Virus record (IMG/VR): IMGVR_UViG_3300036851_000202
Location: 1 to 52,335 of that record
Length of the DNA: 52,335 bases
Direction: 5' to 3' (one strand)
Source of the DNA: a virus
Both the position numbers and the translations under genes were made by a program. Below are positions 10,338 through 46,114 of this stretch, in pieces. The notes beneath the pieces are model-generated. The model did no database searches. It saw only the letters and a list, made by a program, of their open reading frames with translations, and was not told where the DNA came from. Position 1 is the first letter of the stretch; each line of letters begins with the position of its first letter.

Positions 10338-10339
10338 GG

Positions 10340-11248: not shown

Positions 11249-11258
11249 ACTCCTATAC

Positions 11259-13484: not shown

Positions 13485-13931
13485 ATGTCGAATGCAGCTC
13501 GCGGATTTATCGGATGCCTTGCCTTTCTGGCCCTTTGCGGCGTGACTGTTCTTTCGATGTTCGCTTGCTGCGGCGGGCTCGGCGTTGTCGGCCTGCAAGA
13601 AGCGGCGAAGCAAGAGGCCCAGCTCGCGGCTAGGCCCAAGGCCAGTGAAGAACTTCAGCAACAGCGCAAGGCACTGATCGACAAGTACCGTGACGCGGGA
13701 ATGTTTGTACGAATCGAAGTACCAGGCGACGTGCCTCACGTATTTGTCGATCCGGTGGCGTGGTCACTCATAGACATCGAGGACAAAGAGGCGTTCGCTG
13801 GGGTGGTCGCCGCATACCACTACGGTCTGGATAAAGGCGTGATCGGCGATGCCCAAGACACCGTGAGGTTCTTCGATCGCACGACCGGAAAGGCTATCGC
13901 GTCCTACTCTCCTCCGCTCGGAATACGGTAA
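13485..13931 (+). CDS. membrane-anchored protein, 148 aa
   Basis: One hydrophobic N-terminal helix (about residues 7-38, FIGCLAFLALCGVTVLSMF, Cys- and Gly-rich) followed by a coiled-coil stretch (EELQQQRKALIDKYR) and a soluble beta-rich domain. Likely anchored in the inner membrane with the C-domain outside. Host-like composition; function unknown. First of three consecutive membrane or secreted genes. Confidence 0.6.
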   Translation: MSNAARGFIGCLAFLALCGVTVLSMFACCGGLGVVGLQEAAKQEAQLAARPKASEELQQQRKALIDKYRDAGMFVRIEVPGDVPHVFVDPVAWSLIDIEDKEAFAGVVAAYHYGLDKGVIGDAQDTVRFFDRTTGKAIASYSPPLGIR

Positions 13932-14014
13932 TCGGGCTCGGCCTTTCTAAGATTCGGCGCTGGCGAGCGAATTGGGACTAGCTTTTCTTTCTCGCTTGGG
14001 AGTAGGTTTGAGAT

Positions 14015-14227
14015 ATGGTCAACACTGAGGTCGCGAACGGATTCCAATTCTCGCTGCGGTCGCTGTTGATCCTGACGGCCGTTGCGGCGATTCTGCTGGG
14101 CCTCGGGCGAATGATCGTCCCGGCGGCGCTGGCGGTCGCACCGGACCTGACGATGCTGGCTTGGCTGGGCGGGCTTGTGGCACTCGCGGGAGCTGTAGCC
14201 CTAGTTTACTTCTACGCGAACCGATAG
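14015..14227 (+). CDS. planctomycete-type FSLRSLL membrane protein, 70 aa
   Basis: Residues 11-30 read FQFSLRSLLILTAVAAILLG, a start very common in planctomycete membrane proteins, followed by a second hydrophobic helix (about 45-68). Two-pass inner-membrane protein. It sits seven bases before the prepilin gene, so the two may act together. The host-type motif supports a planctomycete host or recent acquisition. Confidence 0.65.
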   Translation: MVNTEVANGFQFSLRSLLILTAVAAILLGLGRMIVPAALAVAPDLTMLAWLGGLVALAGAVALVYFYANR

Positions 14228-14234
14228 GTGGAAC

Positions 14235-24844: not shown

Positions 24845-27034
24845 TTACGATGAGCCGCCGTCCGCATGGACGCCGCCACGGTACTCTTGGAAGTTCACGC
24901 CAACGTCCGAGTAGCCGCGCATCTGAACGCCAAGCACGTTGAATTCGGCGTCGGCCGTTTCGACGGTCGGCATCACGTTGCCGTTGAGGGCGGCGATCGC
25001 GATGACCGGCAGGACGTTCGGATCGGCCAGCAGCCACCAGGCAGTCGAGGTATTGCCCGTGTACGTGGAATTGCTGATGTACGGCGAGCTTTCCAGGCGG
25101 AACCGCCCGCGGAACACGTTGATGTTGGACATGCCGGCCGAAGCGCCGGAAACGATGACCGATTGCGGGTCCAGCAAGGCGCTGGCCGTCGCCTTGAGCG
25201 CCGACGGGACAAGGACAATCGCCGCCTCCATCCCCAGAGGAGTGCCGTCAGGGTTGGTCTGGTTGAGGAAAATCGTCTCGGTTGCAGCCAATCCGGCGAG
25301 CGTCATATCCGCAACGCCGGTATTGATGTTGCTATTGCCGGACGCGAAGAACGACGTCGAGACACCGGACAGGAATTCTGTCCAGAAGATGTGATTTAAG
25401 AGCTTCATCGCACCGTTTCCGAGCTTCATCGGAACGTCGGTCAGGGCTCCGGTGTCATCGTTGATGATGTCCTGCCGCGTAATGGCCAGCATCTTCGCGT
25501 AGGTATCGGCCTTGTTGGTGTAGCTCAGCTCGCCGAGCGTGCCGTGCTTGATTTCGCCGTCGCCGGCAACCTGCTCATACCGCACGGAATCCGTCAGGCT
25601 GACGGTGGTAGCGGTCTTGAAGTCGCGGACGTTCTGAATCTTCGCGATCCGCAGCGGCGTCTGATCTACGGCATTCCAGCCGCGGAATACGAACTTGTTG
25701 GCGACGTTGGAAACGATGTCGGAAATGTCGATCGTGCTGAAGCCCGCAGCGTGGATGTGCTGCCGCGGGGCAGTCATGCGGAAGGCCGCCCGCTGAACCT
25801 CCAGCGTCACGTCCATGTTTCCGTCGTTGAAGCCGTTGGCCTGGGCGCAGAGCAAGAAGAGCTGCTTGAGCCCGATTCGCCCGCGGAACCGCTTGTGCGC
25901 GGCATCCAGCACCTTCTCGTCAAACTGCTTCTCGATATCGGGCAGGTTGCCGGCCTGGCAGAGTGCCGCCTCCAGCACGTCGTTGGTGAGCTGCCCGTCG
26001 CGCTTCGAGGAGAACACGCCGACGCCCGGCGCCATCGTCGTAGCTTCGAGCAATTCCAGACGGAACTTGTCAACGCCCCATTTGCCGTCGATGCCCTGCT
26101 GGGCCAGTTCCTTGATGGCCTTGATTTCATACGGCCGCTTGTCGCAGGCGTTGAGGGCAATATCGGTGATCGCGTCAATGCGGTCGGTTTCGGCCTGCTT
26201 GGCATCAATGCCCTCGTCGAGCTTGACCCGCTTTTTCGGCGGAGTCACCAACTGACTCGTCGTGAAGTTGGCTTCGATCTTCTCTTGCTGCTCGGTCGTG
26301 GCGTTTTCCACGTCGATCCCCATGCTTTCGGCCCATGCTTTGACTTCGGCTTTCATAACTGTCTCCTTGGTAGAAGCGGCCGAAGCCGCGATGGTGACTT
26401 GGGTATCGTCGTCAGCGCCGTGAGAAACGAATGCAAGCCCCTTGAGCGTGCCGACGCGGGTCACGTACATGGGGCCGTCAAAGGTCTGGCCGTTGGCCTC
26501 GACCGTCTTGCCGGCCTTGACCTCCTGAACCTTCTCGGGATTGACTTCAAGACTCGATTGCCACACGTAGCCGTCGCGGGCGCTGTCCACCACTTCATCG
26601 CGGGCGGCGGTAGCGGCGGAGGCGGTTCCGTTGGCGACGAGAGATTTGCCGTCGTTTGCTACGGCGAAATTGCCGACACGCTTGGTGCGGTCGTGGTCGA
26701 GATTGGCGACAAGCACTTTGCTGGGCTTCAGGCCCGCAAGATCGATGACCACTGGCAAATCCCAGCCTTCGATGTCGAGTTTGCCGCCCGTGTAGAATGT
26801 GCTGGTGAACTTGGCCGGACCTTTGCTGGCGCCTTCGCCTTCCGCCGCGCTGATTGTCACGGGTGCGGAGAGGGCGATGATCGCTGGTCGTTTGCCTTTC
26901 GCCATGGCTTGCTCCTTCAATTTGGCCTGACACATGACGACGGCTTGCCCTTGGTCGTGACCTTCGTCCATGACCATCGGCACACAGCGCCGCATGTAGT
27001 CCTCGCGCGATTCGCCGGGCTTAGGAGTGGGCAT
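24845..27034 (-). CDS. fused prohead protease and major capsid protein
   Basis: 729 residues. The opening PKPGESREDYMRRCVPMVMD is the short motif at the head of many such proteins. Residues about 50-230 form the protease part (FTSTFYTGGKLDIEG, LDHDRTKRVG with a histidine in the expected place); about 230-330 is a charged scaffold-like delta region; 380-729 is a capsid domain (RDFKTATTVSLTDSVRYEQV, RQDIINDDTG, SNINVFRGRF). This protease-scaffold-capsid fusion is known in Mu-like and related phages; maturation would cleave the polyprotein. Confidence 0.8.
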   Translation of the reverse strand: MPTPKPGESREDYMRRCVPMVMDEGHDQGQAVVMCQAKLKEQAMAKGKRPAIIALSAPVTISAAEGEGASKGPAKFTSTFYTGGKLDIEGWDLPVVIDLAGLKPSKVLVANLDHDRTKRVGNFAVANDGKSLVANGTASAATAARDEVVDSARDGYVWQSSLEVNPEKVQEVKAGKTVEANGQTFDGPMYVTRVGTLKGLAFVSHGADDDTQVTIAASAASTKETVMKAEVKAWAESMGIDVENATTEQQEKIEANFTTSQLVTPPKKRVKLDEGIDAKQAETDRIDAITDIALNACDKRPYEIKAIKELAQQGIDGKWGVDKFRLELLEATTMAPGVGVFSSKRDGQLTNDVLEAALCQAGNLPDIEKQFDEKVLDAAHKRFRGRIGLKQLFLLCAQANGFNDGNMDVTLEVQRAAFRMTAPRQHIHAAGFSTIDISDIVSNVANKFVFRGWNAVDQTPLRIAKIQNVRDFKTATTVSLTDSVRYEQVAGDGEIKHGTLGELSYTNKADTYAKMLAITRQDIINDDTGALTDVPMKLGNGAMKLLNHIFWTEFLSGVSTSFFASGNSNINTGVADMTLAGLAATETIFLNQTNPDGTPLGMEAAIVLVPSALKATASALLDPQSVIVSGASAGMSNINVFRGRFRLESSPYISNSTYTGNTSTAWWLLADPNVLPVIAIAALNGNVMPTVETADAEFNVLGVQMRGYSDVGVNFQEYRGGVHADGGSS

Positions 27035-31063: not shown

Positions 31064-33169
31064 CTATCTCCCAGAGGCTTTTGCCATATCCCGCGCAGTT
31101 TGTCGCTGATCCGGCGGCGGGCGGGATGATTTTGCGGCTCCAAGCACGCGAATTCCGTTGAGTGCTGCGCCAACATCGCTGTAGTAGCTCGCGTCGAGCC
31201 AGTCCATTTCACGCGCCTTAGGAATGAACACGCGGCGCACAACTCCCTTGTATTCTTCCTCGACCTCGATTTCTGCGCAGATATGCTTGGCGTACTGCTC
31301 GTGCTGAGTGAGCGGCGTATCGTCGTCGCCCCAGATGAACATGCAGCCCGGCTTGTCCGTCGCGGTCATCCATCTCGCGTGCTCCCATGCCTTCCAGTAA
31401 TCGGTGTCGGCGTGTACCGCCCAGATGCCGACTGGGTTATCACGGTCGAAATACCACCGCTCCCCACCGCCAGGCTTTCTGTTGGTCGTCCTGGCGATGC
31501 ATGGGCGAAACTTTCCTTTTGTCGATGCACCGGCAGACTGCCCAATGCCCTTGATCGCATAGACGCCCATCCCAAGCGACTTCACCGCCATCATCACCGC
31601 GTCGGATTCGTATCGCGAGTCGAATACGGACACGATCTGGCTCAGGGGCTCGCCGTTTGCCTGCAGGTACTCAGCGGCCCGAAACTCTTCCTCTCGCCTG
31701 CGCACGGCGTTGTAAATCGCCCGGTTCAGCCCTTCGTTGCTGCCGTGCTTAACGCCTGCCACATCCATGATCCCATAGTCGATCGTGTAGCCAGTTCCAT
31801 CCGGCTTAAAGGCGCGAACCACCCAATGGAAGCCCTTCGTTTTTCCAACATCGCAGCCGTGCGATAGAACGGTGCAGCCGGGCGGGATAGTTTTGTTGGC
31901 ATAGCCAGACTTCTGCTTCTGGATCATCTGGGGATTGATGCCGGATTCAATGCGTCCATCGTCTTCTGGCGGGTCGTTTTGATATTCCGTCAGGAAGCTC
32001 GGCATCCCGTGGTCGGTGATGAAGTCGTAGCAGTTCTGCAGGGCCGAGACTTGCATCTGCGATCCATCAGGGAGGATTGACCGCGTGTAGTCGTTCTCAT
32101 TGCTGACGACGGCCCCGAGGTGCATTTCGTCGAATCGTTCAAGCAGGAACTGATGCGCCTTGCGGCCGTGCTTATCAATTGGCCGTCCGTCATCGTCGAA
32201 CGTCTCGCGGCCTGCCCGCCGCAGTCCCATGTACTCATCCCACAGAGACTGATTGGCCGGCCATTCCTTGATCTTTCGCAGCCGCACCCCCGACCACTGC
32301 TTTTGCTTTGGGTCGGAATACTTGAACGCCACAGAGTGCCGGCTGGGGATCGTGCACAGCATGACCGCGCCGAATGGCTCGCCAGGGCCACCGAGACCGC
32401 TGATGTTCTCATCGACCGTCTTCTCGATCTTCGCTGCAATCGTGCCGCCGTCTTTTGAGGACAGAGAATCGCGATCATCCAAGTCATCTAGCAGGCAGAA
32501 CCTGGGTCGAACGTCGTAGAGGTTGAATCCCTGAATGTCGTTGGACGTGATGCCCATACCTGCAAGCATTCCGGCCATCCCACCCTCATCATCGAAGCTC
32601 GGCAGGATGATATGATCGGCAGCCCATTCCAGGAAGACAGGCCGACCACCGACCGTGACGTTGTGAGCGCGTGCAGGGGCCGGTGCGACGTGACGGGCAA
32701 TAATGCACTCCAGCCCGTAGTCGTCGAATAGTGGCGATCCTTCCCGGGCACTCCGCAGTTTATTTTTGATCGCGTCCAAGCTATCGCCTGCCTTCTTGCC
32801 GGTCGCGTTGATGAGCAGGGACAGCGGCACAAACGGAACTAGTAGGCCATCGCGTTCGATCTTTTGGAGACTGTACTTCAGGCATAAGTAGCGGGCGATG
32901 CTGGTCTTTCCGTCGTGCCGCGGGGCCGCAAATGTCTTCAGCAGCCCATATTGCAGGGCGTGTGAAATCTCTTCCACGATGTGTCGTTGATCGTCAGTAA
33001 ACGGAAACCGGAAGACGCCCGGAACGTACCGTCGCAACCACTCGCAATCGTCCGCCTCGCAGGCTGCCCGGCGATTGGGGTCTTTGGTGGTATGGACTGA
33101 CAGATCCCGCTCTGCAGCACGCTTTACAGCGGCTTTGGTGGCCTGTCGTTCGCGTTCGGTCTGGGTCAT
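31064..33169 (-). CDS. terL: terminase large subunit
   Basis: 701 residues. An ATPase motif APRHDGKTS lies at 82-90 and FCLLDDLDD at about 224-232 serves as Walker B. The C-terminal nuclease half has VFDSRYESDAV and a final DWLDASYYSD. It pumps DNA into the prohead and cuts it. Its length is greater than the common 450-600 residues. No small subunit is recognisable nearby; an inverted-repeat region just upstream may be the recognition site. Confidence 0.88.
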   Translation of the reverse strand: MTQTERERQATKAAVKRAAERDLSVHTTKDPNRRAACEADDCEWLRRYVPGVFRFPFTDDQRHIVEEISHALQYGLLKTFAAPRHDGKTSIARYLCLKYSLQKIERDGLLVPFVPLSLLINATGKKAGDSLDAIKNKLRSAREGSPLFDDYGLECIIARHVAPAPARAHNVTVGGRPVFLEWAADHIILPSFDDEGGMAGMLAGMGITSNDIQGFNLYDVRPRFCLLDDLDDRDSLSSKDGGTIAAKIEKTVDENISGLGGPGEPFGAVMLCTIPSRHSVAFKYSDPKQKQWSGVRLRKIKEWPANQSLWDEYMGLRRAGRETFDDDGRPIDKHGRKAHQFLLERFDEMHLGAVVSNENDYTRSILPDGSQMQVSALQNCYDFITDHGMPSFLTEYQNDPPEDDGRIESGINPQMIQKQKSGYANKTIPPGCTVLSHGCDVGKTKGFHWVVRAFKPDGTGYTIDYGIMDVAGVKHGSNEGLNRAIYNAVRRREEEFRAAEYLQANGEPLSQIVSVFDSRYESDAVMMAVKSLGMGVYAIKGIGQSAGASTKGKFRPCIARTTNRKPGGGERWYFDRDNPVGIWAVHADTDYWKAWEHARWMTATDKPGCMFIWGDDDTPLTQHEQYAKHICAEIEVEEEYKGVVRRVFIPKAREMDWLDASYYSDVGAALNGIRVLGAAKSSRPPPDQRQTARDMAKASGR

Positions 33170-33850: not shown

Positions 33851-36198
33851 GTGGCAGCCCCCACGTCATCATCATCGCCAGCGCTCGTGTAAACCTGCGT
33901 CGTCACAACGCTCGTTCCGTTGTCCGCATACGTCTTGATTTCGTCGCTGTCCTTGGTGACGCGCTTGAAGAATCGCCGCCACACCTGCACCAGCATTTCG
34001 CGGAAATTCGCCGCAACGCCAGCGGGTGCAGTGGTTGCTATCGAATCGAGCCCGTCGCTGGCCAACTTGTAGCCGGTTGTGACGGTCACGCTCCCCACGC
34101 TTCCGCTCAGATTCCCCGTGATGTTGCCAACAATGTCCATCGTCTGATTTGGCAGGTTGATCGCCGTCAGGTGATCCCCATCGCCACCGGCCTCGGTCAG
34201 TCCAGCGCCGGCAACGCCCACTGTCGCAATGAGCGCGTCAAGATCGGCGTTTGTCGCGTAGCTCGCCGCCACCAGCGTTCGCGCCTCAAACTCTGCAACG
34301 GTGGGCAAGTCCGCGAGTTGCGTATCCAGGTTCGCCGAAGCCAGTCCCATCGCCGCCCGAATCGTCGCGTCCAGGTCCAGCGTGGTTGAATCCTCGTCCA
34401 GGGCGGTCAGCGTGCGAGCGGCAGCAGCCCAAATGTCGCCTACGTTATGGCTGCTCCGGCTGCTAACGGTCGCATTGAGGTTCGTGTTGACAAGCGCCCA
34501 AATCGAGTCGCTGTCGCTGGCCGGGTCGCCAATCGCCTGGCCGAACGTGCCTTGTGTTTGATGGGCGGTCGCATCTTCGTCCCACACGGCATCGACCTCA
34601 GCCGCCAGCGCCGTGGCATAGAGCGTGCCGCCGAATCGCAGGGCGTCCGACTTCATATTGCCGTCTGCCGTGAGGGCGGCTGGCAGGCGGGATTGAATGT
34701 CAGCAATTTCGGTATCAAGGAAATTGTCAACGGTGTCGAGCGCGGAGGCGGTCGCGAGACTTGCCCCGGCGTGATCCTTGGCCAGCACGTTTTCACCGAA
34801 TGATCCAGCGGCAACGTGACCGGCCCGCGCCTCGTCCCATACTGCGTCGGCAACTTCTCCCGCCGTTGGGGCTGAACCGCCCGCCGCTGCCGTGTCGCTG
34901 AAGATCTTGTAAGTGATCGTCCCGGTAGGTGTCGTGGTCCAAGTGGCCACTGTTGCCGTGTCCGTTGCCGACACGTAATCCGTGATGAGCCTGGATTGCC
35001 CCACCCCTGCCGAGCCGCCCGTGATAAGAACACGCGATCCGATCAATTCGTCATCGGCGAAGCCCGCGGCAGCCCGCAGTTGGATGGTAGTTCCTGTGGC
35101 GGCTTGGGCTGTGCCTTGGTCAACGATATTTGTCCAGGGGACCGCCCCGGCAGTGTCGTCAAACGCAAGCTCTAGATTGTCCGCTGCCGCCGAGTCGCCG
35201 CTGATTTGCGTAGCATTGGCCGTGATTGGCGTCGTCAGGGTAAATGCGCTGGCGACCAGGGTAATGCCACCAGTGCCGTCCAGCAGCGATTCGAGATTGT
35301 TAGCCGCCGTGGCATCTCCAGACAGCTTCGCAACGTCGATGCCCACGATATCATTCGAGGCATTCGTAGCAGATACAGCGCCCGTGAGCGTCGTAGCTCC
35401 CGTAACGGTCAGGGCACCGAAGGTCGTTGTCCCGGCATTGCTCCCGGCGATGAAGTGGCCGCCTGACGCACCGGGAACGATGTTGGCGATGTAGAGTGCC
35501 TTGCCGATCGAACTGGCCACGGTGAAGTCGCCGGCCGTCGCGTCCTGCCAGACGCCTGTTGCGATTGCCGCTGCGGTGAGTTGGTTCGTGACGGTGGTTG
35601 CTGTGTTGACAAGATTGATCGTGGTAGCCGACAAGTTTACCGTACTGCCAGGCGTTCCGACGTTGGCCCAATCAATGCCTGTCTCACCGGTCGCCGAAAC
35701 GTCCAGCGTGCGGCCGGCTGTCGTAGGGACAAGCGGCAGGGCCACCGTGGTCAGCGCGTTCCACAGCTTCACGTTCACATCTGGCGTGCCTGCCGTACCG
35801 GGGGTGAGCCAAGCGGTCCCGAGGAGCTGCAGGACATTCGCCCCAGCGACGGATGACCCGGCCGCCCCTGCCCAAGCATTGGCGCTGGCAGCAAATAGCG
35901 CGTCGTAAACCGCCTCCTCCAGCACATGAATCTCTTTGATCGGGCAGGCGTTCACCGTGTCGTCGATGACGATTTCCAGCGTCCCGACCGTGTTGACGTC
36001 GGTGGCCGTGAGCGACAGCGAGTAGTGACCGGTGTTGCGGTGCGTGAGCGTAGCCGAGCCGTTTAAGGCTGCTGGCGCACCGCCGTTTTTGCTCGCCTTG
36101 AAGTCGCCGACAACGCCGCCCGTGACCGCTACGCCGTCCGCGTCCAGCACGGGGCCAACGGTGACGATGATCGCTGTTGATTGACGCGCGTAGATCAT
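33847..36198 (-). CDS. tail fibre-like repeat protein
   Basis: 783 residues from the ATG at 36198 (ATGA overlap). Ala/Thr/Gly/Asp-rich beta protein. The C-terminal half carries copies of a VADAVWDEARAGHVAAGSFG module (also VDAVWDEDATAHQTQGTFGQ), known from phage fibre and appendage proteins, and ends in a coiled region. Likely a long fibre or side appendage. Confidence 0.7.
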   Translation of the reverse strand: MIYARQSTAIIVTVGPVLDADGVAVTGGVVGDFKASKNGGAPAALNGSATLTHRNTGHYSLSLTATDVNTVGTLEIVIDDTVNACPIKEIHVLEEAVYDALFAASANAWAGAAGSSVAGANVLQLLGTAWLTPGTAGTPDVNVKLWNALTTVALPLVPTTAGRTLDVSATGETGIDWANVGTPGSTVNLSATTINLVNTATTVTNQLTAAAIATGVWQDATAGDFTVASSIGKALYIANIVPGASGGHFIAGSNAGTTTFGALTVTGATTLTGAVSATNASNDIVGIDVAKLSGDATAANNLESLLDGTGGITLVASAFTLTTPITANATQISGDSAAADNLELAFDDTAGAVPWTNIVDQGTAQAATGTTIQLRAAAGFADDELIGSRVLITGGSAGVGQSRLITDYVSATDTATVATWTTTPTGTITYKIFSDTAAAGGSAPTAGEVADAVWDEARAGHVAAGSFGENVLAKDHAGASLATASALDTVDNFLDTEIADIQSRLPAALTADGNMKSDALRFGGTLYATALAAEVDAVWDEDATAHQTQGTFGQAIGDPASDSDSIWALVNTNLNATVSSRSSHNVGDIWAAAARTLTALDEDSTTLDLDATIRAAMGLASANLDTQLADLPTVAEFEARTLVAASYATNADLDALIATVGVAGAGLTEAGGDGDHLTAINLPNQTMDIVGNITGNLSGSVGSVTVTTGYKLASDGLDSIATTAPAGVAANFREMLVQVWRRFFKRVTKDSDEIKTYADNGTSVVTTQVYTSAGDDDDVGAAT

Positions 36199-37388
36199 GC
36201 GGCACACCCCATGAGGACTCGGCGGCGACGATTGCCGCCCACGGATGGCGTCAGGTTCAGCGAGTTGTCAAAGTTGTAGGTCAGCACGGCCCCGTTCCTG
36301 AACAGTGGCCCGAACCGATTCCCGCCGGGGTCTTGGTACGTCTGCACGTAGTTTCCAGTGCCTGCCGAATAGGCCGTGTCGCCAGCCGACCACGTTGTTC
36401 CGCCGTCCGTCGATTTGGTGTAGTAAATGCCGACCGTCGTTCCCAGCGTTTCCGAGCCGTCCCGCTTGCCCGTGTAGCAAACGTAGATGTCGTCCGTGTT
36501 ATTGTCGATGTAAACGGTCGCGTGATAGCAATCGTCGATGTTGGTCGCGATGGCTGTCAGTTCGGTGATCGAGCCGGAGCCGTTGATGTCGAAAACACGG
36601 ATGTCGGCGGTGACTCCCGCCGGGTCGCGTTCGGTCACAACCACGGCGATCAAATGCCCATCGCTGTGCCGGATTGCGCCGGAGAACGGGTACTGAGAAG
36701 TGCCGTCAGAGCTCAAGGCCGTGACTGTGGCGATCGTGCTGCTTTCCGCGTTCGTGTCAGCGGAGTCGTCGTGCGTCTTCAGCGTCCAGGCCGTTGCGGA
36801 GTGGTCGTAGTACAGGCAGTCGATGTCGTTCGCATCGGCGTAGTTGCCAGGGAACAACATCGCGAAGTCGTTCGCTGCGACCTCGTGAAGGTTTGTGCGG
36901 ACGGTCCAGTTCACGCCGCCATCTGTCGAGCGGTAGGTGCCTGTTTCGGCAGCGGCGTCGATGCAAAAAACGATGTAGAGATTGCCGCCGCGTGCCTTCG
37001 TGATGCTGAGGTGAGCGGAAACGGACAGCGCTCCGCTTGTTTGCGTTACCACCGTGCGCAGAGTTCCCAGCGTGTCGCCGTTCGTGTCGAGCGTGATATA
37101 GAAAACATCGTCCGTGCCGGTGTCCGACCAGGCGATGTGAATCAGCGTCCCACTGTCGCCCGGAGTCCGCTGGTCGAAATAGCAGGCGTGCATGTGGACG
37201 GTGCCGGTCGAGATATTGACCGCCGCGCCCCAGGTCTGCCCGCTGTCCGTCGTCTTGTAGTATTTCAGGTCGGACGAGCTATCAATAAAAACAGCGTACC
37301 CGACCAACGCAGACACCCAGATAATTGGGCGCTGCGCCTTGCCGTTCTGGGCCGAAGCCGTGCTCGATACTACGGTGATGTCTGCCAT
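36195..37388 (-). CDS. BNR/Asp-box beta-propeller protein (sialidase-like fold)
   Basis: 397 residues with at least three Asp-box motifs: YKTTDSGQTWG, YRSTDGGVNWT and TKSTDGGTTWS, spaced as blades of a beta propeller. Sialidases and many other glycan-binding proteins have this fold; the catalytic arginine triad cannot be confirmed by eye. Between the fibre and RTX genes, a glycan-binding or -cutting virion part is most likely. Confidence 0.75.
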   Translation of the reverse strand: MADITVVSSTASAQNGKAQRPIIWVSALVGYAVFIDSSSDLKYYKTTDSGQTWGAAVNISTGTVHMHACYFDQRTPGDSGTLIHIAWSDTGTDDVFYITLDTNGDTLGTLRTVVTQTSGALSVSAHLSITKARGGNLYIVFCIDAAAETGTYRSTDGGVNWTVRTNLHEVAANDFAMLFPGNYADANDIDCLYYDHSATAWTLKTHDDSADTNAESSTIATVTALSSDGTSQYPFSGAIRHSDGHLIAVVVTERDPAGVTADIRVFDINGSGSITELTAIATNIDDCYHATVYIDNNTDDIYVCYTGKRDGSETLGTTVGIYYTKSTDGGTTWSAGDTAYSAGTGNYVQTYQDPGGNRFGPLFRNGAVLTYNFDNSLNLTPSVGGNRRRRVLMGCAA

Positions 37389-37391: not shown

Positions 37392-38039
37392 CTATAGAAT
37401 CGTCTCAGCATTCCCCGTGTCGTCAGGCCCAAAGTACGCCGTGTCGTTCCCGCCGTCCCCGTTAAGCGTGTCGGCGTCGTCATCGTCCAGCGGGCTGAGC
37501 AGGAATGAATCGAGCACGCCGTTGTCGGACCAGTCGGCCAGCAGCGCGAGCATGGCCGCATCGTCGGTGTCGTCCGCCGTCGCCGTGCCGTTGAACAGCA
37601 GGTCATCGCCGCCGCCGGCGCTGAGGATGTCTGGCCCGTCTCCGGCAATCAGCACGTCGTTACCGTTGCCGCCGAAGAGGCGGTCAAACCCGTCGCCGCC
37701 GGAAACCAGATCGTTGCCGCTGTAGGCCGCCAGATAGTCGTCACCGCCCTCGCCGTAGAGCCGTGCGTCTTTCGGCACGTTGCTCATTTGCAGCGTGTCG
37801 TTGCCGTCCCGGCCGCACATAATGACATCGCCGGTGACGGTCAGGTTTTGGAATGAGCCGTTCAAGCGGACCCGCAAAAGGTCGGGGTTGAAGAAACTGG
37901 CGAGCGAGACTTGCATCACGTCGTTGCCGCTGGTGCCGACCATAATCAGGTCGCCCGAGACGACTTGCACTGAGCCGTCCGCATAGCCGTCGCAGAGGGC
38001 CAGCAGGCAGCGGGATTCCAGTTGCTCGAAAGTGCGCAT
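37392..38039 (-). CDS. secreted RTX calcium-binding protein with planctomycete export motif
   Basis: 215 residues. The N-terminus RTFEQLESRCLLAL is the LExRxLL sorting motif found on many planctomycete exported proteins. Residues about 90-165 hold repeats such as YGEGGDDYL, SGGDGFDRL, FGGNGNDVL and SAGGGDDLL, the GGxGxDxL nonapeptides that bind calcium. AGAAGGAG lies before the ATG. It may coat the virion tail tip or be secreted as a lysogen surface protein. The motif ties the phage to a planctomycete host. Confidence 0.85.
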   Translation of the reverse strand: MRTFEQLESRCLLALCDGYADGSVQVVSGDLIMVGTSGNDVMQVSLASFFNPDLLRVRLNGSFQNLTVTGDVIMCGRDGNDTLQMSNVPKDARLYGEGGDDYLAAYSGNDLVSGGDGFDRLFGGNGNDVLIAGDGPDILSAGGGDDLLFNGTATADDTDDAAMLALLADWSDNGVLDSFLLSPLDDDDADTLNGDGGNDTAYFGPDDTGNAETIL

Positions 38040-38295: not shown

Positions 38296-38874
38296 TTACC
38301 GTCTCTCCATCGCCGCATACCACGCCTGCACGCGCAGGGCGGCATCTTCGGTCGTCATTGCATTGCAGCGGACCAGGGCTTTAGCGATCGCCTTCACCGA
38401 ATCTGGCCCGCAGTTTGTCAGGCCGACGAGCTGCTTCGGAAAGCCCTCGAGCAGCCCGCCTACCGTGAACATCCCGGCCGCTTCAAGCATGTTCGTCGTC
38501 CGCATTGGCAGGTTTAGCCAAGTCACATGCTTGGCCGCCAGCGTGCCGTTCGTCGGTCCCGGAACCGTCGTTTCCTTGGCCCGTAGTTCGTATTCAAGCG
38601 CCAGTTGATCCACCACTAGGTGCAGCTTGTCCCATTGGCCGATCCTGAGCAGAGCTTCAAGCCGCGGAAGGGCTTCGGCGACAAAGACGGCTGGCAGATC
38701 GTAGCTGGCCGCGCGATTGGAGACAGGGTTACGCTGACTGCGGACGATTGCCGCGCGGTCCAGTGCGTCCCCGCGACGTGCTTGCCCTTCGCCAGCCTTG
38801 ATGGCGCGTTCTGTCATCCCGGCATCGTGCGGCTGATTGGCAAGCCACGGGTGGATTTGGTTCTGGTGTGCCAT
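38296..38874 (-). CDS. RNA polymerase alpha C-terminal-domain-like protein
   Basis: 192 residues. Residues 117-170 (LNLPMRTTNMLEAAGMFTVG, LLEGF..., NCGPDSVKAI) match the bacterial RpoA C-terminal domain, including R125 and N128 (E. coli R265, N268), and the NxGxxS turn. E. coli K298 is replaced by aspartate. The rest is an unrelated basic N-terminal segment and helical middle, with no alpha N-terminal domain, so it cannot replace alpha. It could bind UP elements, sigma or activators and redirect transcription, or only use the helix-hairpin-helix fold to bind DNA. Confidence 0.7.
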   Translation of the reverse strand: MAHQNQIHPWLANQPHDAGMTERAIKAGEGQARRGDALDRAAIVRSQRNPVSNRAASYDLPAVFVAEALPRLEALLRIGQWDKLHLVVDQLALEYELRAKETTVPGPTNGTLAAKHVTWLNLPMRTTNMLEAAGMFTVGGLLEGFPKQLVGLTNCGPDSVKAIAKALVRCNAMTTEDAALRVQAWYAAMERR

Positions 38875-38948: not shown

Positions 38949-39218
38949 CTACGGTTCCCCCGTACAAACTTTCCCGCTCTCGCACTTCGCGCACTTGTGC
39001 ATTTCGCCGCCGCACTCGGGGCAGTAGGCCACGGGCTTGACGAACGGCTTGCCCTGCGCCATGTCGCGGAGGAATGAGTTGGTGCTGTCGGTAATCGTCA
39101 CCGGGCAGGGGATTGTCACGTCGCCAACAGGTTCGCCGAGGTCCAAGTCGGAATCACTGTCCTCGTCGGGCGGAATGATATCCGTGCCTTCAGTGTCGCT
39201 GTCGTCTGGGTCGATCAT
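38949..39218 (-). CDS. acidic zinc-ribbon protein, 89 aa
   Basis: The N-terminal 30 residues are very acidic (PPDEDSDSDLDLGEP). The C-terminus has YCPECGGEMHKCAKCESG, a CxxC...CxxC ribbon. Its ATG overlaps the upstream stop. No family recognised; an acidic plus zinc-ribbon layout suits a regulator or adaptor. Confidence 0.6.
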   Translation of the reverse strand: MIDPDDSDTEGTDIIPPDEDSDSDLDLGEPVGDVTIPCPVTITDSTNSFLRDMAQGKPFVKPVAYCPECGGEMHKCAKCESGKVCTGEP

Positions 39219-39691
39219 GGCACTTCACTCCCCGGCAGTTTGGCCAATGGGTTGCGACCGAACTTCAGGTAGGTTTCCACGGCTGTCTGCCGCACCTGAA
39301 GGTCTTGGACGTTGCGAATGTTGATCTGCTGCGTATTGTCAACTCGGGTACTAATGTCCGACACGTTTTTGATTTCTTGCTGCAACGTCTTGTCGAGCGA
39401 CCCCAGACGCAATTCGATCTTCCCGTCCACTGCGGCGAGCTGATCCTTAGCGCCCCGGAATTGAGTTTCGATTTCTGCAAACTGCACCTGCATGGCGGCG
39501 AGTTGCGCTTGGACAGCGGACTTGGCGTCCTCCAGTTCCTTCACGCGAACGGATACCTTGTCGTTCTCGCTTTCCGCGTTGATTAAGCCCGCATACATCG
39601 GTGTGATGACCGCGGACACGCCGGCCACTAGAGCCAGGATGGATAGAACCGGCGTCCATGTTTTTCCGTTGCCGTGTTCTGAGTCAGCCAC
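39215..39691 (-). CDS. membrane-anchored coiled-coil protein (spanin/lysis candidate)
   Basis: 158 residues; the GTG at 39691 is chosen because AGGAGG lies five bases upstream. One transmembrane helix (about 14-38, VLSILALVAGVSAVITPMYA) precedes a long coiled coil (KELEDAKSAVQAQLAAMQVQ and beyond). This type II layout suits an inner-membrane spanin or a lysis adaptor, but also structural anchors. Next to several tiny membrane genes. Confidence 0.55.
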   Translation of the reverse strand: MADSEHGNGKTWTPVLSILALVAGVSAVITPMYAGLINAESENDKVSVRVKELEDAKSAVQAQLAAMQVQFAEIETQFRGAKDQLAAVDGKIELRLGSLDKTLQQEIKNVSDISTRVDNTQQINIRNVQDLQVRQTAVETYLKFGRNPLAKLPGSEVP

Positions 39692-39815
39692 CTCCACCTC
39701 CTACCGCGCGGGCCGCGAGGTCAATTAGCAAGCCGATCAATCCCCAGCCAAGCCTGAAGCCACAGCCGATAATCACAGACCAAGCGAATGTTCGCCAACT
39801 GATTTCTGTGGTCAT
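39684..39815 (-). CDS. 43-aa single-pass membrane protein (holin-like candidate)
   Basis: ATG at 39815. Contains an amphipathic/hydrophobic segment FAWSVIIGCGFRLGWGLIGL continuing LLIDLAARAV and a glycine tail. Small, one membrane pass, located in a cluster of membrane genes. Overlaps the coiled-coil gene by 8 bases, which suggests coupling. Confidence 0.5.
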   Translation of the reverse strand: MTTEISWRTFAWSVIIGCGFRLGWGLIGLLIDLAARAVGGGGG

Positions 39816-39860: not shown

Positions 39861-40007
39861 ATGGCTGCAATTCTCAAGTTCGGGACTTCCGCTGCCGATG
39901 CTTTACGCATGGCAGAGCGTTGGATTTACTTCCTGGCAGGTATTGGCCTCATGGTGGTCCTCGGCCTGGCAGGCTGGTTTGTAGGTCGCTTGCTTCAACT
40001 CTTTTGA
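39861..40007 (+). CDS. 48-aa membrane peptide on the opposite strand
   Basis: ATG at 39861 with AGAGG upstream. The hydrophobic segment WIYFLAGIGLMVVLGLAGWF is a clear transmembrane helix with a short cytoplasmic N-terminus. It overlaps the 3' end of the leftward gene at 39949-40317, so its transcript would be antisense to the leftward membrane cluster. A possible antiholin-like or regulatory role is inference. Confidence 0.5.
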   Translation: MAAILKFGTSAADALRMAERWIYFLAGIGLMVVLGLAGWFVGRLLQLF

Positions 40008-40317
40008 CGCATAGCGGGCAGGGACAGCGATTGGCGAACTCCGCCGCGCTCCTGCTAGTGAACGTCAGTCGCTCATTTAGCAGCGGACAATTCGGATCGG
40101 CGTGATAGTCCGGGCCCAGAGCCGCACCGACGTAGGTAACTGGCAGGGCCGCGTGGGCTTGCTCCGAGACGGGCTGGACAATCGCCTCGGGCCATGCCTG
40201 TAGCGTCAGGATGACGCTGCCAGCGACATTCGCCGCACGCCACCAGTTGCTTCCGCTCCGGCGCGCGGCGAGTTCCCCCAGGATGATGGCGGCCCAAGCG
40301 AATAGGATTGCTGTCAT
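39949..40317 (-). CDS. membrane protein with C-terminal metal-site-like motif, 122 aa
   Basis: Two N-terminal hydrophobic helices (AILFAWAAIILGELAA and AANVAGSVILTLQAWPE), then an exposed domain with YHADPNCPLL and CPCPLC, reminiscent of a small Cys/His metal site. ATGA overlap with the upstream gene. Function unknown. Confidence 0.55.
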   Translation of the reverse strand: MTAILFAWAAIILGELAARRSGSNWWRAANVAGSVILTLQAWPEAIVQPVSEQAHAALPVTYVGAALGPDYHADPNCPLLNERLTFTSRSAAEFANRCPCPLCVKRVEASDLQTSLPGRGPP

Positions 40318-41033: not shown

Positions 41034-41471
41034 TTACTGATCAATCACTTGGCCGGATGGCAGAACGAGCCTTCCGTCCGGCAAGCGATAAACGGTCTCT
41101 TGGCGAATGGCTTGCGTCTGGCCGCTGTAGCTGTAGCCCTGCGAATAGCTTAGGGACGGTTGCTCGGCATAGACCACGGGCGCCGGCTGCTGGATGACGA
41201 TCGGCTGGGGAGCCGGGACATAGATCGGCTGCGGAGCGTAGAACGACTGGGCGAAGAACGGGGCCGAATAGCCGTAGCGAAAGCTCTGGCTGTAGTACGG
41301 CGCAACAAACCGCAAGTCCTGCCGGAATGCGGCGTGATACTGCGGAGCGACAACGACAGCCCCAACGCGCGGGCGAAAGGGCGTGGCTCGGATGCGGACC
41401 ACTCCACCATGCGCGGCGGCAGTCGATGCCAATCCGGCGACGAGCGAAAGGGCGAGTAGGAAGCGTTTCAT
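41034..41471 (-). CDS. secreted Tyr/Pro/Gln-rich protein
   Basis: 145 residues; a clean signal peptide (KRFLLALSLVAGLASTAAAH). The mature part has runs of Y, P, Q and V (APQPIYVPAPQPIVIQQPAP), with no fold seen. Its ATG overlaps the cytochrome-like gene stop in ATGA. Low-complexity exported proteins like this are common in planctomycetes. Confidence 0.6.
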   Translation of the reverse strand: MKRFLLALSLVAGLASTAAAHGGVVRIRATPFRPRVGAVVVAPQYHAAFRQDLRFVAPYYSQSFRYGYSAPFFAQSFYAPQPIYVPAPQPIVIQQPAPVVYAEQPSLSYSQGYSYSGQTQAIRQETVYRLPDGRLVLPSGQVIDQ

Positions 41472-42313
41472 TCTTGGTTCTCCTTGGGAGGAAGTTGTAA
41501 TTCGAGTCCGCCTGGCGGCTTGCCGAAGTTGTTATCCGCTGGTGGCATTGGCGCGGGCGGTGGCTGTTCGTTGCCCAAGCGCGGACGGGCCAAGAGCGAA
41601 TGCAGGCTGGAAATCACCACCGTCTTTTGCGCCGCCGTGAGGTTGCCGCCGGGTGGCATCTTGCCGCTGATAACCGCCGTGCTGGAGAGTTCAATAGTCG
41701 GCTGGTCGATGTCCACCGAACCGTCAAGGATGATGTGCTTTGGCGCGCCCTTCGTCCCGCGGCCGTCGTGGCAGGCAGCGCAGGACATGGCTTGGACGAG
41801 CTGCTGCGGGCCTTGCTGTTGGAGTTGTTGGGGCGGTGGCGGCTGCACGATGCGCGGCTGGCCGTTCACAATCTGGACAGAGAACTGCTGCTGTTGCGGC
41901 CCGTTATTGGATGAGAGCGCCTGAGCAGCAAGGCTGAACACCTGAGCGTTCGCCTCCCGCCGCGACTGCGCTTCCATGTACGCGAGTTGCTGCGAGCTAC
42001 GCTCACGCTCGGATTCGATGATGAGCTGCTGATTCACACCGATCTGCTCAAGTGCCCGGACGTTCCGATCCTGGAGCAAGATCGAGTCGTCGCGGTAGCT
42101 GGCGGTCTGCACCCCGTACACAGATTGGCCTTGCTGAGAGTAAGGAAAAATGTTGTTAAACAAAAAGTTGGTAGTGTAGTTCGCAGGGGCATAGGCCACG
42201 GGCTTGACGTAGTAGCGGCAGTAGTTTCCACGCCGCCCGCAGCGACCGCAGGCGCTCGCCTCACACGCCAACGACGCCACCAACGCGAGAGCAATCACAA
42301 CAACGCGGACCAT
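41468..42313 (-). CDS. secreted c-type cytochrome-like protein
   Basis: 281 residues from the ATG at 42313. Signal or lipoprotein start (VRVVVIALALVASLACEASA; SLAC could be a lipobox). Gln/Tyr-rich middle. The C-terminal domain has CAACH at 178-182, the covalent haem site, and GKMPPGG with M219 as the probable axial ligand, then a helix. This is the standard planctomycete cytochrome c domain. Haem attachment needs the host maturation system. A haem protein is highly unusual in a phage. Confidence 0.75.
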   Translation of the reverse strand: MVRVVVIALALVASLACEASACGRCGRRGNYCRYYVKPVAYAPANYTTNFLFNNIFPYSQQGQSVYGVQTASYRDDSILLQDRNVRALEQIGVNQQLIIESERERSSQQLAYMEAQSRREANAQVFSLAAQALSSNNGPQQQQFSVQIVNGQPRIVQPPPPQQLQQQGPQQLVQAMSCAACHDGRGTKGAPKHIILDGSVDIDQPTIELSSTAVISGKMPPGGNLTAAQKTVVISSLHSLLARPRLGNEQPPPAPMPPADNNFGKPPGGLELQLPPKENQE

Positions 42314-42323: not shown

Positions 42324-42863
42324 TTATGCAACGTGCTTCCAGGTTTTGCCTTGCGTAATTTCCCAGACGTATCGTGGCAGCATTTTTGGGTATTTCCTTG
42401 CGATGTCACATGGACGCATGCCGGATGCGTGCAGCCGGCGAATCTCCCTCACGTCGCTTTCCGTAAGTTTCGCCATCCATTGCCTTTCGCCCCTTGGCTG
42501 AGTTCCGTGCTTGGTCCTGTCATCGCAGTTTTCGATATGTGTTCCCCACGCTACGTTTGTCGCTCGGTTGTTGGCCTTGTTTCCGTCCAGATGCCTGCAT
42601 TCCATTCCGTCCGGTCGCGGCCCAACAAATGCTTCCAAAACTACGTGGTGAATCTTTCTTCTGAACTGACCTGACTCATTGCATAGGGTGACATCGCGGT
42701 ACTCTCCACTTGCACACCCGACTAACCGTTTCCATTTGCAGAACGTGATCCCATTCGGTCCTCCGTGGCGACAACTCCAAACCGTTCCGTCGTCGCCAAC
42801 GGCATATCCCTGAAAACCAACTACCTCCCTAAACTCGACTCCGGGTACATTTGGAATATCCAC
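42324..42863 (-). CDS. HNH homing endonuclease (NUMOD4-HNH type)
   Basis: 179 residues from the GTG at 42863, with AGGAG upstream. NUMOD4-like start (FREVVGFQGYAVGDDGTVWS), then HNH with HHVVLEAFVGPRPDG, CRHLDGNKANNRATNVAWGT, and a C-terminal helix-turn-helix (SDVREIRRLHASGMRPCDIA). Inserted between the two CxxCH genes, like a mobile homing gene. Cuts DNA at a specific site. Confidence 0.85.
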   Translation of the reverse strand: MDIPNVPGVEFREVVGFQGYAVGDDGTVWSCRHGGPNGITFCKWKRLVGCASGEYRDVTLCNESGQFRRKIHHVVLEAFVGPRPDGMECRHLDGNKANNRATNVAWGTHIENCDDRTKHGTQPRGERQWMAKLTESDVREIRRLHASGMRPCDIARKYPKMLPRYVWEITQGKTWKHVA

Positions 42864-42922: not shown

Positions 42923-44599
42923 TCATTTCTTGTATTCCTTTGAGACTCCGTAAGCGGCTGCGGCATACACTCGCAGCCAATCCTTTCGCGGAATCCTTAG
43001 CCCTCGCTTCAGGCCCTCGATGGCCGGATCAACGAAGGTCACTGGCTTGCCGTCAATCATCACGTCGATGCGGCGGTTTGGCAGTAATTGATTCAGGACG
43101 TGGCGGCCCTCGCCGGCCTTGGAGCGATAGCCCAATTCAAGACAGGCCTGATCCGCCCCGACGTTCGCCTCAGTGATGCTTTTGGCGTACCAAAAATCGT
43201 TAAATTGCTTAGAGAAATTCTCGTGAGCCTTCTCAACGACACCCACAGCCCCGCGCACTCCGCTTCCCCGAGTGGCACGAAAGACGGCATCGGCGTAGTC
43301 ATCGCGAGACTCCTGCAATCCCTGCTGGAATGAGTCTCCGGCGGCATACAGGCCAGCCACGCGGTCAACTGTTGCAAACCTACCGTCCTTGCTAGAAAGG
43401 TCGTCGAACAGATCGAGTTCGCCGATGCCGCCGCCAAGAAGAATCGGGACTTCATTACGTACCGCCTGCACGCCTCCAGTTGGCCCGTGACACCTAATGC
43501 ACGAGGCCATCGGATACAACTGCTTCTCGTGAGGGTCGGGCACACGGTGGTCGCTCACCAGATTCGGCGGCGCGACATCGACCAACTTGCCAGCGCCGTC
43601 TGTGAGCAAATATCCGAGCGTGCCGTTGGCGCGATGAAAAATGATTTCCTTGCCGCGGGCTCGATCAACTCCGTCAACAAGGTTGTAAATTGCGTGCCGC
43701 GAAGCATCGACATCCTCAGCGAAAATGTCGTAGGTGATGCGAGCCCGGCCGACTGCGCCTTGAACTTGCTCGACAGTTCGCGGCTTGCCGGTGACACCAG
43801 ATTGGAAAATTGCTGCGCGGTCGTCGCCTTCGACCTTGCGGGAGAGGAAAACGTCTAACCCAACGAGCTTAAAAATCTCTCGCTCGTCAAGCCGGTGGCC
43901 ATCACGGATAAAGCCGATAGCGTGATAGTAGAGCCCGCCCTCGATCGTACTGCTGAGCCGTCTGAGGAAATCATCAGCCCGCACAAGCGGAGCAAAGCAC
44001 GAAGTCTCTTGCTCAAGTAAGGTGTACCCCTGCGCGACGTGGGGGGCCGGGATAAATTTCCGCCCATGATAGGTTTTCCCGTCGATGTGAACGTAGGGCT
44101 GGCTCGCCACTGACCCACCAAGAGACAGAGGAACTTCGGCGTGAAAGTACGGTTCCTGAATCGCCAGGGCGTTCCAGCAGATCAGCAGCCGACGCAGGTC
44201 GTCCGGCTTGGGGGCCAGCTTCCGCAAGTCCCACACGATCATCCGGCCGCCATAGAGAACTTCCGGCAGCACGATCAATGACGACTGATTGCAAGCTGAA
44301 TTCACCACGAGCGAGTTCGCCTCTACCCAGGTCGAGTCGCCCCACTCTGGAATGGCAATCCATCGCAGGTACGGGATGCTGGCGGGGTCCGTCTGCTGCC
44401 GCATCTTCAGGTCGAGCACTGCCCAGGCTACAAAGTCGGTCGTATCAGGGACTCGCGTGTATTCGTAGGGACCGGCCGGGACTGCCGGGGCGCTGATTCG
44501 CGGCGCAGGGGCCCACTGCGCAGGATCGAAGCCCGGCAACGGCCGCGAAAGTGAAGGGTCGATTTGGCCGACTAGCGCGACCATCAATAACTCCCACAT
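42923..44599 (-). CDS. secreted protein with CxxCH haem motif, 558 aa
   Basis: Hydrophobic start (WELLMVALVGQ) suggests export, though it is short. Most of the protein has no recognised fold. C367-I-R-C370-H371 (SCIRCHGPTGG) is a haem c site and lies in a context like planctomycete cytochrome-containing secreted proteins. A single CxxCH could also be chance, but the neighbouring gene has the same kind of motif, which raises its weight. Confidence 0.55.
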   Translation of the reverse strand: MWELLMVALVGQIDPSLSRPLPGFDPAQWAPAPRISAPAVPAGPYEYTRVPDTTDFVAWAVLDLKMRQQTDPASIPYLRWIAIPEWGDSTWVEANSLVVNSACNQSSLIVLPEVLYGGRMIVWDLRKLAPKPDDLRRLLICWNALAIQEPYFHAEVPLSLGGSVASQPYVHIDGKTYHGRKFIPAPHVAQGYTLLEQETSCFAPLVRADDFLRRLSSTIEGGLYYHAIGFIRDGHRLDEREIFKLVGLDVFLSRKVEGDDRAAIFQSGVTGKPRTVEQVQGAVGRARITYDIFAEDVDASRHAIYNLVDGVDRARGKEIIFHRANGTLGYLLTDGAGKLVDVAPPNLVSDHRVPDPHEKQLYPMASCIRCHGPTGGVQAVRNEVPILLGGGIGELDLFDDLSSKDGRFATVDRVAGLYAAGDSFQQGLQESRDDYADAVFRATRGSGVRGAVGVVEKAHENFSKQFNDFWYAKSITEANVGADQACLELGYRSKAGEGRHVLNQLLPNRRIDVMIDGKPVTFVDPAIEGLKRGLRIPRKDWLRVYAAAAYGVSKEYKK

Positions 44600-44618: not shown

Positions 44619-44876
44619 TCAACTCCCGAACCAACTCCGCACGATCAACGCCACGCTTCCCACAAGCATCAAGGCGAGACTGCCGAAGATGACGAACGCT
44701 TCGTAGTCGATGTTCGCGGCGTAGGTTAGGAAGCGTTTCCAGAGGCTCAGCTTGAGTCCCTTCCGGTCCGCCGGTTCGGTCCACAGGCTGTCTTTCGGCG
44801 GCGGCAATGTGCAGTCGGCCAGCACGCTGCCGCTGTCAATCTCACCCTCCGGCACTGTCCAGATTTGATCGTTCAT
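44619..44876 (-). CDS. small protein with C-terminal membrane helix, 85 aa
   Basis: Start at the ATG at 44876, overlapping the metalloprotease stop in ATGA. Soluble N-terminal 50 residues, then a transmembrane helix (AFVIFGSLALMLVGSVALIV) and a short tail. Could anchor or assist the protease encoded just before it. Confidence 0.55.
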   Translation of the reverse strand: MNDQIWTVPEGEIDSGSVLADCTLPPPKDSLWTEPADRKGLKLSLWKRFLTYAANIDYEAFVIFGSLALMLVGSVALIVRSWFGS

Positions 44877-45610
44877 TGCCACACCTTGCTCCCGCTCAGA
44901 GTGACCTTCTTGCCGCCAAGCTCTGCGGAAATCTCGCACGTAAAGCGGTCGCCCTTGGGCAGCGCTTTCATCGTGCAGACCAGCATTTCGCCTGGCGGCG
45001 GCTCTGGTGACGGTGCCAGCTCCGCCGGTCCGAACATCTTCATGGCGATACTCGCCTCATCCGCTTGAGGCTCCCAAATTTGTGGGTTGTACCGCTTGTT
45101 CATCAGGTCAGGAGTACCGTCATCGTCCAAGTGCGGGAAGCCAATGATATGGCCCCACTCATGCGCGCCGACGTGGGCCAACCCGATCGTGTTCCTCTCC
45201 GGCACGCCGAAGACCTCCACGAACTGCTCCATGTCCAGCCGCATCCGTTGCTGCTTTTGCCCTGTGTAGAGTTCGGCATCGGCAAGAATCCCGAGCGGCC
45301 CGTCGATGGTCGTGACCTTCACCAGCACATTGGCCGACGCTTTCGTAACGGCCTGCTTAGGCCGGTGCTTGCATACCTTGGACCACGCGGAGAACGCCGA
45401 TTGCAGCACAGATTCCGTCTTGCCGTCTGACCAACCGGCAATCCTCCCTTCCAGCCACCACGTCCAATCAGGAGACGGAATGGGGTAGAGCTTGCCGTCT
45501 AGGCGAAATTCTTCTTTGACTCCGCAGTAGTGGATTTCCTCTGCGAAGTCACCGGTTGCGCGAGCGATTTGCGGAACAGACCGCCTCGGCTTGCTGGATT
45601 TTTTTGCCAC
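44873..45610 (-). CDS. matrixin-type metalloprotease
   Basis: 245 residues. H150-E151-W-G-H154-I-I-G-F-P-H160 is the metzincin HExxHxxGxxH zinc site, with the Met-turn near M170 (PDLMNKRY). A C-terminal proline-rich linker (ELAPSPEPPPGE) leads to a small extra domain. No clear signal peptide (basic start KKSSKPRR). Matrixins cut proteins outside the cell; here the role could be lysis through a protein-containing envelope, capsule cutting, or degrading host factors. Rare in phages. Confidence 0.8.
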   Translation of the reverse strand: MAKKSSKPRRSVPQIARATGDFAEEIHYCGVKEEFRLDGKLYPIPSPDWTWWLEGRIAGWSDGKTESVLQSAFSAWSKVCKHRPKQAVTKASANVLVKVTTIDGPLGILADAELYTGQKQQRMRLDMEQFVEVFGVPERNTIGLAHVGAHEWGHIIGFPHLDDDGTPDLMNKRYNPQIWEPQADEASIAMKMFGPAELAPSPEPPPGEMLVCTMKALPKGDRFTCEISAELGGKKVTLSGSKVWQ

Positions 45611-45613: not shown

Positions 45614-46114
45614 CTACCCCGCCGGAAAGAGTTTCTTCAGCAGGTCCAGGGCGCCCGTCAGGAAGCCCGCCAACTGCGGGGCCAACTTGAGCAGCGTGAA
45701 AATGCCACGCAGCCCGCTGAAGTCAATCACGGCCTGAGACGTTCCGCCTGCGGTCAGGCACTGGGCGATCTGCGATTCCGCAGCGGCCTCTTCCTCGGTC
45801 GGCGTCACGAGCTCCAGGCCGCCACTGGCCGCAGCCGGTGCGGGAATCACCTTGGCGGCGATTTGCTTGACCAGCTCCACAAGCTGCATGACCAGCGGCC
45901 ACACTTCGGCCAGCTTCGGTCCAAACGCGAGCAGGGTCTTCAACAGGTCGATGTACTTCATTTGCACTTCCTCACTTGAAAACAGGATTGGTTCAGTTAA
46001 CGGGTTGACATACACTTCCCCGCCGTACATCTCGGCGTAGGACTCGGCGAGTGCTTGCGATCGTGCGGGGATCTTGTCGGGGCTGCCTTTGCGGGTGTAG
46101 TAGTAGGTCGTCAC
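45614..46114 (-). CDS. hypothetical protein, 166 aa
   Basis: Starts at a GTG right after the first tRNA; a good ribosome site before an internal ATG (45961) offers a 115-aa alternative. The C-terminal half is amphipathic (LLKTLLAFGPKLAEVWPLVM, FTLLKLAPQLAGFLTGALDL), resembling membrane-associated helices. No family recognised. Confidence 0.5.
   Translation of the reverse strand: MTTYYYTRKGSPDKIPARSQALAESYAEMYGGEVYVNPLTEPILFSSEEVQMKYIDLLKTLLAFGPKLAEVWPLVMQLVELVKQIAAKVIPAPAAASGGLELVTPTEEEAAAESQIAQCLTAGGTSQAVIDFSGLRGIFTLLKLAPQLAGFLTGALDLLKKLFPAG

Follow-up and report, generated by a model that had tools for sequence, protein, structure and literature searches.

Lysis by double-stranded-DNA phages, as described, proceeds through a holin, a peptidoglycan hydrolase and a spanin. 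The planctomycete wall was long held to be proteinaceous, peptidoglycan being shown later (PMC4432640), and P. limnophila and G. obscuriglobus possess peptidoglycan sacculi that are sensitive to lysozyme (PMC4432640). A survey of lytic proteins does not mention planctomycetes (PMC12596118). The parts of the cassette described here are known; for their combination, exchangeable proteases with CxxCH partners in a late cassette of planctomycete phages, as for matrixins in phage lysis and for planctomycete-phage lysis genes generally, we found no report in the open-licence literature.

The window, that is, the whole stretch of DNA analysed, is a single viral record of 52,335 bases with tailed-phage gene content. 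We put at about one in two the probability that the matrixin encoded in it supplies the enzyme of a late lysis-type cassette in planctomycete phages, attacking envelope proteins on release.

Results

A matrixin gene in a tailed phage

The minus-strand gene at 44873-45610 (GTG start, TGA stop) encodes an M10A-type matrixin of 245 aa. Pfam Peptidase_M10 (PF00413) matched residues 57-175 with E = 9.8e-9 and a score of 35.7 bits (gathering cut-off, 24). The preliminary description had named a full HExxHxxGxxH site and a Met-turn, and both could be placed exactly: the zinc site reads HEWGHIIGFPH at residues 150-160 (codons 45131-45163), and the Met-turn, PDLM, has its methionine at residue 170 (codon 45101-45103). 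The three zinc-ligand histidines, the catalytic glutamate and the Met-turn methionine were invariant in an alignment of 18 phage matrixins. The six frames of the window contain the HExxHxxGxxH pattern a single time, and 0 of 200 first-order Markov simulations of the window contain it; a chance HExxH match was rejected on this ground. The codon-position GC of the gene (0.60/0.46/0.72) is like that of neighbouring phage genes; chromosomal contamination as its source was rejected, since the cassette has phage genes to either side and the module is present in further phage records.

An AlphaFold (AF2) model built from the 18-sequence alignment had a mean pLDDT of 68, with the catalytic helices above 80. 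Its best structure matches were MMP-13, MMP-2, MMP-8 and karilysin (target TM approximately 0.6), the MMPs and bacterial karilysin including 3wv3_A (E = 5.5e-6) and 2xs4_A (E = 1e-5). Within the protein, Pfam returned M10 and a sub-threshold reprolysin match only; it gave no peptidoglycan-cleaving or peptidoglycan-binding domain, and the matrixin was therefore not filed as an endolysin. By Pfam score, zinc site, Met-turn and fold the gene product is a matrixin, and its proteolytic activity is predicted.

Inspection of hydropathy and of the N-terminus, by which all signal-peptide and transmembrane (TM) calls in this work were made, revealed neither a signal peptide nor a TM segment in the window matrixin. 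A cysteine-switch-like residue, Cys29 (codon 45524-45526), aligned with a cysteine in all 18 phage matrixins, in an alignment that is weak in part. Its context in the window is HYCGVK, and several other phage matrixins have PRCG-like contexts, near the cysteine switch of MMPs. Since the cysteine is invariant and PRCG-like contexts occur elsewhere, cysteine-switch latency of the enzyme is plausible. Separately, one phage matrixin (L220, 9704-10474) has an N-terminal peptidoglycan-binding-like domain followed by KRCGVADF, close to the MMP prodomain and cysteine switch, with a second matrixin gene just upstream (8006-9352).

Genome layout and probable host

Open reading frames were called by a simple longest-ORF rule, which leaves start codons and some small genes uncertain. 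On the minus strand, early genes (about 10.5 to 1 kb, then 52 to 46 kb, if the record is circularly permuted) lead into the cassette at 46-37 kb, beyond which follow fibre-like genes, terminase, portal, a capsid-protease fusion and the tape measure, down to approximately 15.5 kb. The cassette thus lies between the early genes and the gene for the terminase large subunit (31064-33169, minus strand; GpA nuclease domain), and a BNR-repeat protein, a probable fibre with weak BNR matches (36195-37388, minus), stands between it and the packaging genes. An integrase is encoded on the plus strand at 11.3-12.4 kb.

The major capsid/protease fusion protein (24845-27034, minus) served as the query for finding relatives, and returned 172 loci drawn from viral and genome contigs. 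The great majority of the genome contigs among them bear the label Planctomycetota, a few having odd MAG labels, so the host of the phage is most likely a planctomycete. This agrees with the host of unusual envelope that had been proposed from the window alone.

Several genes outside the cassette are recorded here in their own right. The gene at 23237-24511 (minus), located between the capsid and neck genes, encodes a C-terminal Methyltransf_24 domain and a glycosyltransferase-like N-terminal part; it is found in 30 related loci with identity of up to 70%, and its location is unusual for such an enzyme. A host-type gene with a prepilin N-methylation motif (14235-15278, plus) adjoins the integrase and may represent an attachment-site boundary or captured host DNA. 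The early region includes a DUF6745 protein (8508-9371, minus; E = 6e-29).

Genes packed around the matrixin

Four genes form a tight unit, in the order hydrophobic-helix protein, matrixin, small membrane protein and CytL, followed by an HNH gene and CytS, all on the minus strand. Directly upstream of the matrixin, after a 3 nt gap, lies a small protein with hydrophobic/amphipathic C-terminal helices (45614-46114; start codon uncertain). The matrixin stop overlaps the start (ATGA) of a protein of holin-like size (85 aa; 44619-44876) that has a single TM segment at its C-terminus, and 19 nt after this gene begins CytL (42923-44599), which is 558 aa long, has a weak export signal at its N-terminus and contains one CxxCH motif (CIRCH). 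Pfam gave no cytochrome domain in the window CytL despite the CxxCH, and its structure model was poor (pLDDT 46). Between CytL and CytS stands a free-standing, probably mobile HNH-type endonuclease gene (42324-42863); HNH_3 was among the Pfam matches of proteins from the window and the matrixin-bearing record G450, and similar ORFs occur in relatives L032 and L139. CytS (41468-42313) looks exported, carries one CxxCH (CAACH) and has a weak Cytochrome_CBB3 match (E = 0.005, below cut-off). The same family was significant (E = 3e-7) in two proteins of the L227/L230/L266 set, consistent with the CxxCH CytS of L227 and L230.

The cassette continues with a small exported protein (41034-41471), a small protein with an N-terminal TM segment (39949-40317), and a spanin/holin-like protein with an N-terminal TM segment and a coiled coil (39215-39697), which lies 5 kb from the matrixin and weakly matches PHROG 214 (Rz-like spanin; E = 0.0065). 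Two further minus-strand products of this region were noted. One (38296-38874) scores above cut-off with PF03118 over a domain resembling the C-terminal domain of the alpha subunit of bacterial RNA polymerase, and is possibly a transcription modifier; the other (37392-38039) is small, contains calcium-binding repeats of the RTX type (PF00353) and carries an N-terminal motif, FEQLESRCLL, reminiscent of exported proteins of planctomycetes.

The matrixin module in other phages

No close relatives of the matrixin were found among INPHARED phages, and single-sequence matrixin patterns retrieved none from viral and genome contigs; distant relatives came only with an alignment. Using the window matrixin aligned with two planctomycete chromosomal matrixins as the query, we obtained 29 viral loci. 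In five records (G450, G458, G461, G466 and G467) a CytL homologue follows the matrixin, and the exported CxxCH protein CytS comes next where read. With the window, the matrixin/CytL/CytS set is therefore present in three lineages that differ in their structural genes. One (G450/L219) has T7/SU10-like genes and a matrixin with fused C-terminal hydrophobic helices; in the other (G458/G461/G466/G467) the matrixin has an N-terminal TM anchor, and in G458 TerS and TerL come after the matrixin cassette. Helices similar to those of the 45614-46114 protein are the ones fused to the L219 matrixin, and others adjoin a subtilisin in L266; the likeness is one of composition and character only, and homology of the 45614-46114 protein to the L219 C-terminal region or to L266 4129-4530 was rejected for want of BLAST support.

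Other occurrences lie in different surroundings. In a 343-kb viral contig (L273), CytL and CytS homologues (9284-12270 and 13843-14550, minus) are adjacent without a matrixin, and an exported protein near them looks papain-like (YCAWC motif). Large marine phage contigs (L221, L222, L228, L232 and similar) encode matrixins with twin-arginine-type (Tat-like) signals; many of these genes have close by a DUF1501-like Tat protein or else a small protein with a C-terminal TM segment, and the matrixins look more like exported cargo. Among planctomycete chromosomal matrixins, those at L216 9119-9967 and L217 9422-10360 are cytoplasmic-looking, have a peptidoglycan-binding-like N-terminal region and each adjoin a convergent lipoprotein-like gene. 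The chromosomal matrixins L177 and L178 were considered as prophage genes and rejected, as their flanks look chromosomal.

Different proteases occupy the same slot

We then used CytL as a query against 392 Planctomycetota genomes. In a planctomycete provirus (G428/L266) a subtilisin (Pfam S8, E = 1.6e-58) stands in the place of the matrixin, the order being a small hydrophobic-helix protein, the subtilisin and CytL, and then, further downstream, TerL and portal. The four longer relatives found by capsid protein whose cassette is comparable (G017, G019, G021 and G029) encode a C1 papain-type protease between the early genes and TerL; the Cys-His-Asn triad is visible in these proteins, two of which score above the Pfam cut-off. 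The papain gene of G017 recurs in L249/L250 and L251/L252, accompanied there by a lipoprotein and small TM proteins; TerS, TerL and a different portal lie downstream of the cassette in L249, and in L251 the cassette stands between large structural genes. An N-terminal TM segment, present in the L227 and L230 matrixins, is absent from the window and L219 matrixins, the subtilisin and the papain proteins. In G019, a lipoprotein with a trypsin-like GDSGSP motif (L185 668-1813, minus) directly follows the papain-type protease.

In some other capsid relatives (e.g. G030) the early genes abut TerL, with no protease in the available sequence, and a motif scan covering 2.6 Mb of sequence from capsid relatives gave no matrixin motif. 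Across the gathered loci, protease motifs appeared only in the cassettes or in loci fetched for them, a few spurious matches aside. Predicted proteases of three unrelated classes (matrixin, subtilisin and papain-type) therefore fill one late slot. Position, small membrane partners and a protease that has no signal peptide, or else an N-terminal TM anchor, are constant while the catalytic class changes, which suits a late enzyme that would need only to degrade protein once let into the envelope, the part played by the hydrolase of a lysis cassette.

The same comparison bears on two other explanations. The preliminary description had also allowed for a cargo enzyme: the protease and the two cytochrome-like proteins might be a cargo or moron cluster of host-derived, exported function that modifies the infected or lysogenic cell without lysing it. 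Longer CytL paralogues occur in planctomycete chromosomes, pointing to a host origin of CytL, and matrixins occur there too; the window has an integrase; and a precedent for protease cargo exists in Bacteroides, where a siphovirus-like prophage equipped with an amidase and a holin also encodes a C10 protease (PMC2873492). Cargo would, however, hardly be expected to change its class of protease while keeping position and partners across lineages with different structural genes. The protease also mostly lacks a signal peptide, and its gene lies tight against that of a small TM protein in late-strand direction, beside terminase or fibre genes; we hold this explanation to be improbable but a serious rival. 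A virion-associated or maturation protease, processing phage structural proteins or aiding genome entry, would fit the position of the cassette in G450 and L251, among late structural genes and beside tail or fibre genes. The window nevertheless already has a capsid-protease fusion, and the protease is neither fused to nor conserved with any structural gene, its partners being membrane and exported proteins; this role appears very improbable. The reading as a late enzyme acting on the envelope accommodates both the constant partners and the changing class.

Search for a peptidoglycan hydrolase

The preliminary description had seen no endolysin and called for a search of the remaining genes for an ordinary lysin, and that search bore the observation out. 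No peptidoglycan-hydrolase family was present among the best 25 of 31 Pfam families matched by the window and G450 proteins, nor among the best 25 families for G458, G461 and the provirus, nor among the best 25 for the papain-bearing relatives. Six-frame searches of the window for Amidase_2, M23, SLT and M15_4 gave no matches. Amidase_2 and M15_4 were likewise without a six-frame match in 25 of 25 virus records; M23 matched only in the cellular genome G428 and in no virus record, and SLT had no match above cut-off in the virus records, with two sub-threshold matches (G481 and G482).

A control set of 99 genes, taken from further capsid relatives in which no protease is visible, likewise contained no recognisable lysin, which weakens the proposal that a lysin is absent because the protease has replaced it: the lack of a recognised lysin extends over the whole set and is in itself no proof of replacement. 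It may stem from undetected lysins or from incomplete contigs, many of the relatives compared being contig fragments. These results bear on an accessory role, in which the principal lytic enzyme is an unrecognised, strongly diverged peptidoglycan hydrolase, and the matrixin serves only to strip outer-layer proteins or to free progeny from debris or matrix. Many window genes have no family assignment, and this, the protease-less relatives and the reported lysozyme sensitivity of planctomycete peptidoglycan (PMC4432640) all favour such a division of labour; no set, however, had a peptidoglycan-hydrolase family among its best families, none of the four lysin families had an above-cut-off match in any virus record, and the conserved slot is held by a protease rather than by another enzyme. 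We regard the accessory role as less likely, but as a serious rival.

Discussion

Taken together, the cassettes suggest that planctomycete phages may open their hosts by cutting envelope proteins. In the mechanism we propose, the matrixin would build up in the cytoplasm during late infection, a cysteine switch between Cys29 and the zinc keeping it latent, until one of the small, holin-like membrane proteins opens or depolarises the inner membrane. The matrixin would then reach the envelope and degrade structural or outer-layer proteins, and the cell would burst. In the L227/L230 lineage, export would fall to the matrixin's own N-terminal TM anchor, in the manner of SAR endolysins. In this scheme any broad-specificity protease would serve, and the exchange of one catalytic class for another would thereby be accounted for.

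A stronger form, which we find possible but doubtful, is that the protease, be it matrixin, subtilisin or papain-type, actually replaces the endolysin, kept latent by a cysteine switch (matrixins) or by inner-membrane anchoring, with the exported CxxCH redox proteins possibly helping as a trigger; these proteins have no obvious role in lysis. The early suggestion that the matrixin replaces or aids an endolysin is thus borne out in part. The conserved late cassette with its small membrane proteins, in a slot shared with papain-type and subtilisin proteases, speaks for it strongly if circumstantially; the main objection is that the peptidoglycan of the tested planctomycetes is lysozyme-sensitive (PMC4432640), so that a protease alone may not suffice and may act with an unseen peptidoglycan hydrolase. 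To our knowledge, matrixins do not cut peptidoglycan.

If these phages do rely on exchangeable general proteases, this would reveal what holds the planctomycete envelope together and, at the same time, a new mode of phage lysis. It would also provide enzymes for opening planctomycetes, and would mean that annotation seeking peptidoglycan hydrolases misses lysis genes in the phages of a whole host phylum. The cassette is a concrete, testable gene set.

Among known systems, the best matches to the matrixin in a viral structure library were MMP-like enzymes of insect viruses (ascovirus, granulovirus and entomopoxvirus); these are eukaryotic viruses, and the likeness is one of fold only, with no sign of common viral ancestry. 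With MMPs and karilysin (MEROPS M10A) the window protein shares the HExxHxxGxxH zinc site, the Met-turn, the fold and a single conserved cysteine N-terminal of the catalytic domain, at approximately 20% identity and without a recognised MMP prodomain or hemopexin domain. Whereas MMPs and karilysin are secreted, the window matrixin has no signal peptide, is phage-encoded and shares its operon with genes for membrane and CxxCH proteins. The Bacteroides prophage-like insertion Bfgi2 (PMC2873492) shares the presence of a papain-clan (C10) protease in a siphovirus-like element, but it has an ordinary amidase and holin, whereas the planctomycete phages show no lysin. PeiW and PeiP of Methanothermobacter (pro)viruses (named in PMC12596118) are likewise peptidases for lysis of a host with an unusual wall, lysis being putative here; they are specialised for pseudomurein peptide bonds, whereas the planctomycete-phage proteases belong to general families. 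From the canonical holin-endolysin-spanin cassette the present one differs in having a protein-cutting protease of varying class instead of a peptidoglycan hydrolase, extra exported CxxCH proteins, and holin and spanin roles that are putative. With that cassette, as in lambda S-R-Rz and SAR endolysin systems, it shares a hydrolase without a signal peptide or with an N-terminal TM anchor (L227/L230), adjacent small TM proteins, a lipoprotein (in the papain cassettes), a TM/coiled-coil protein and a terminase nearby.
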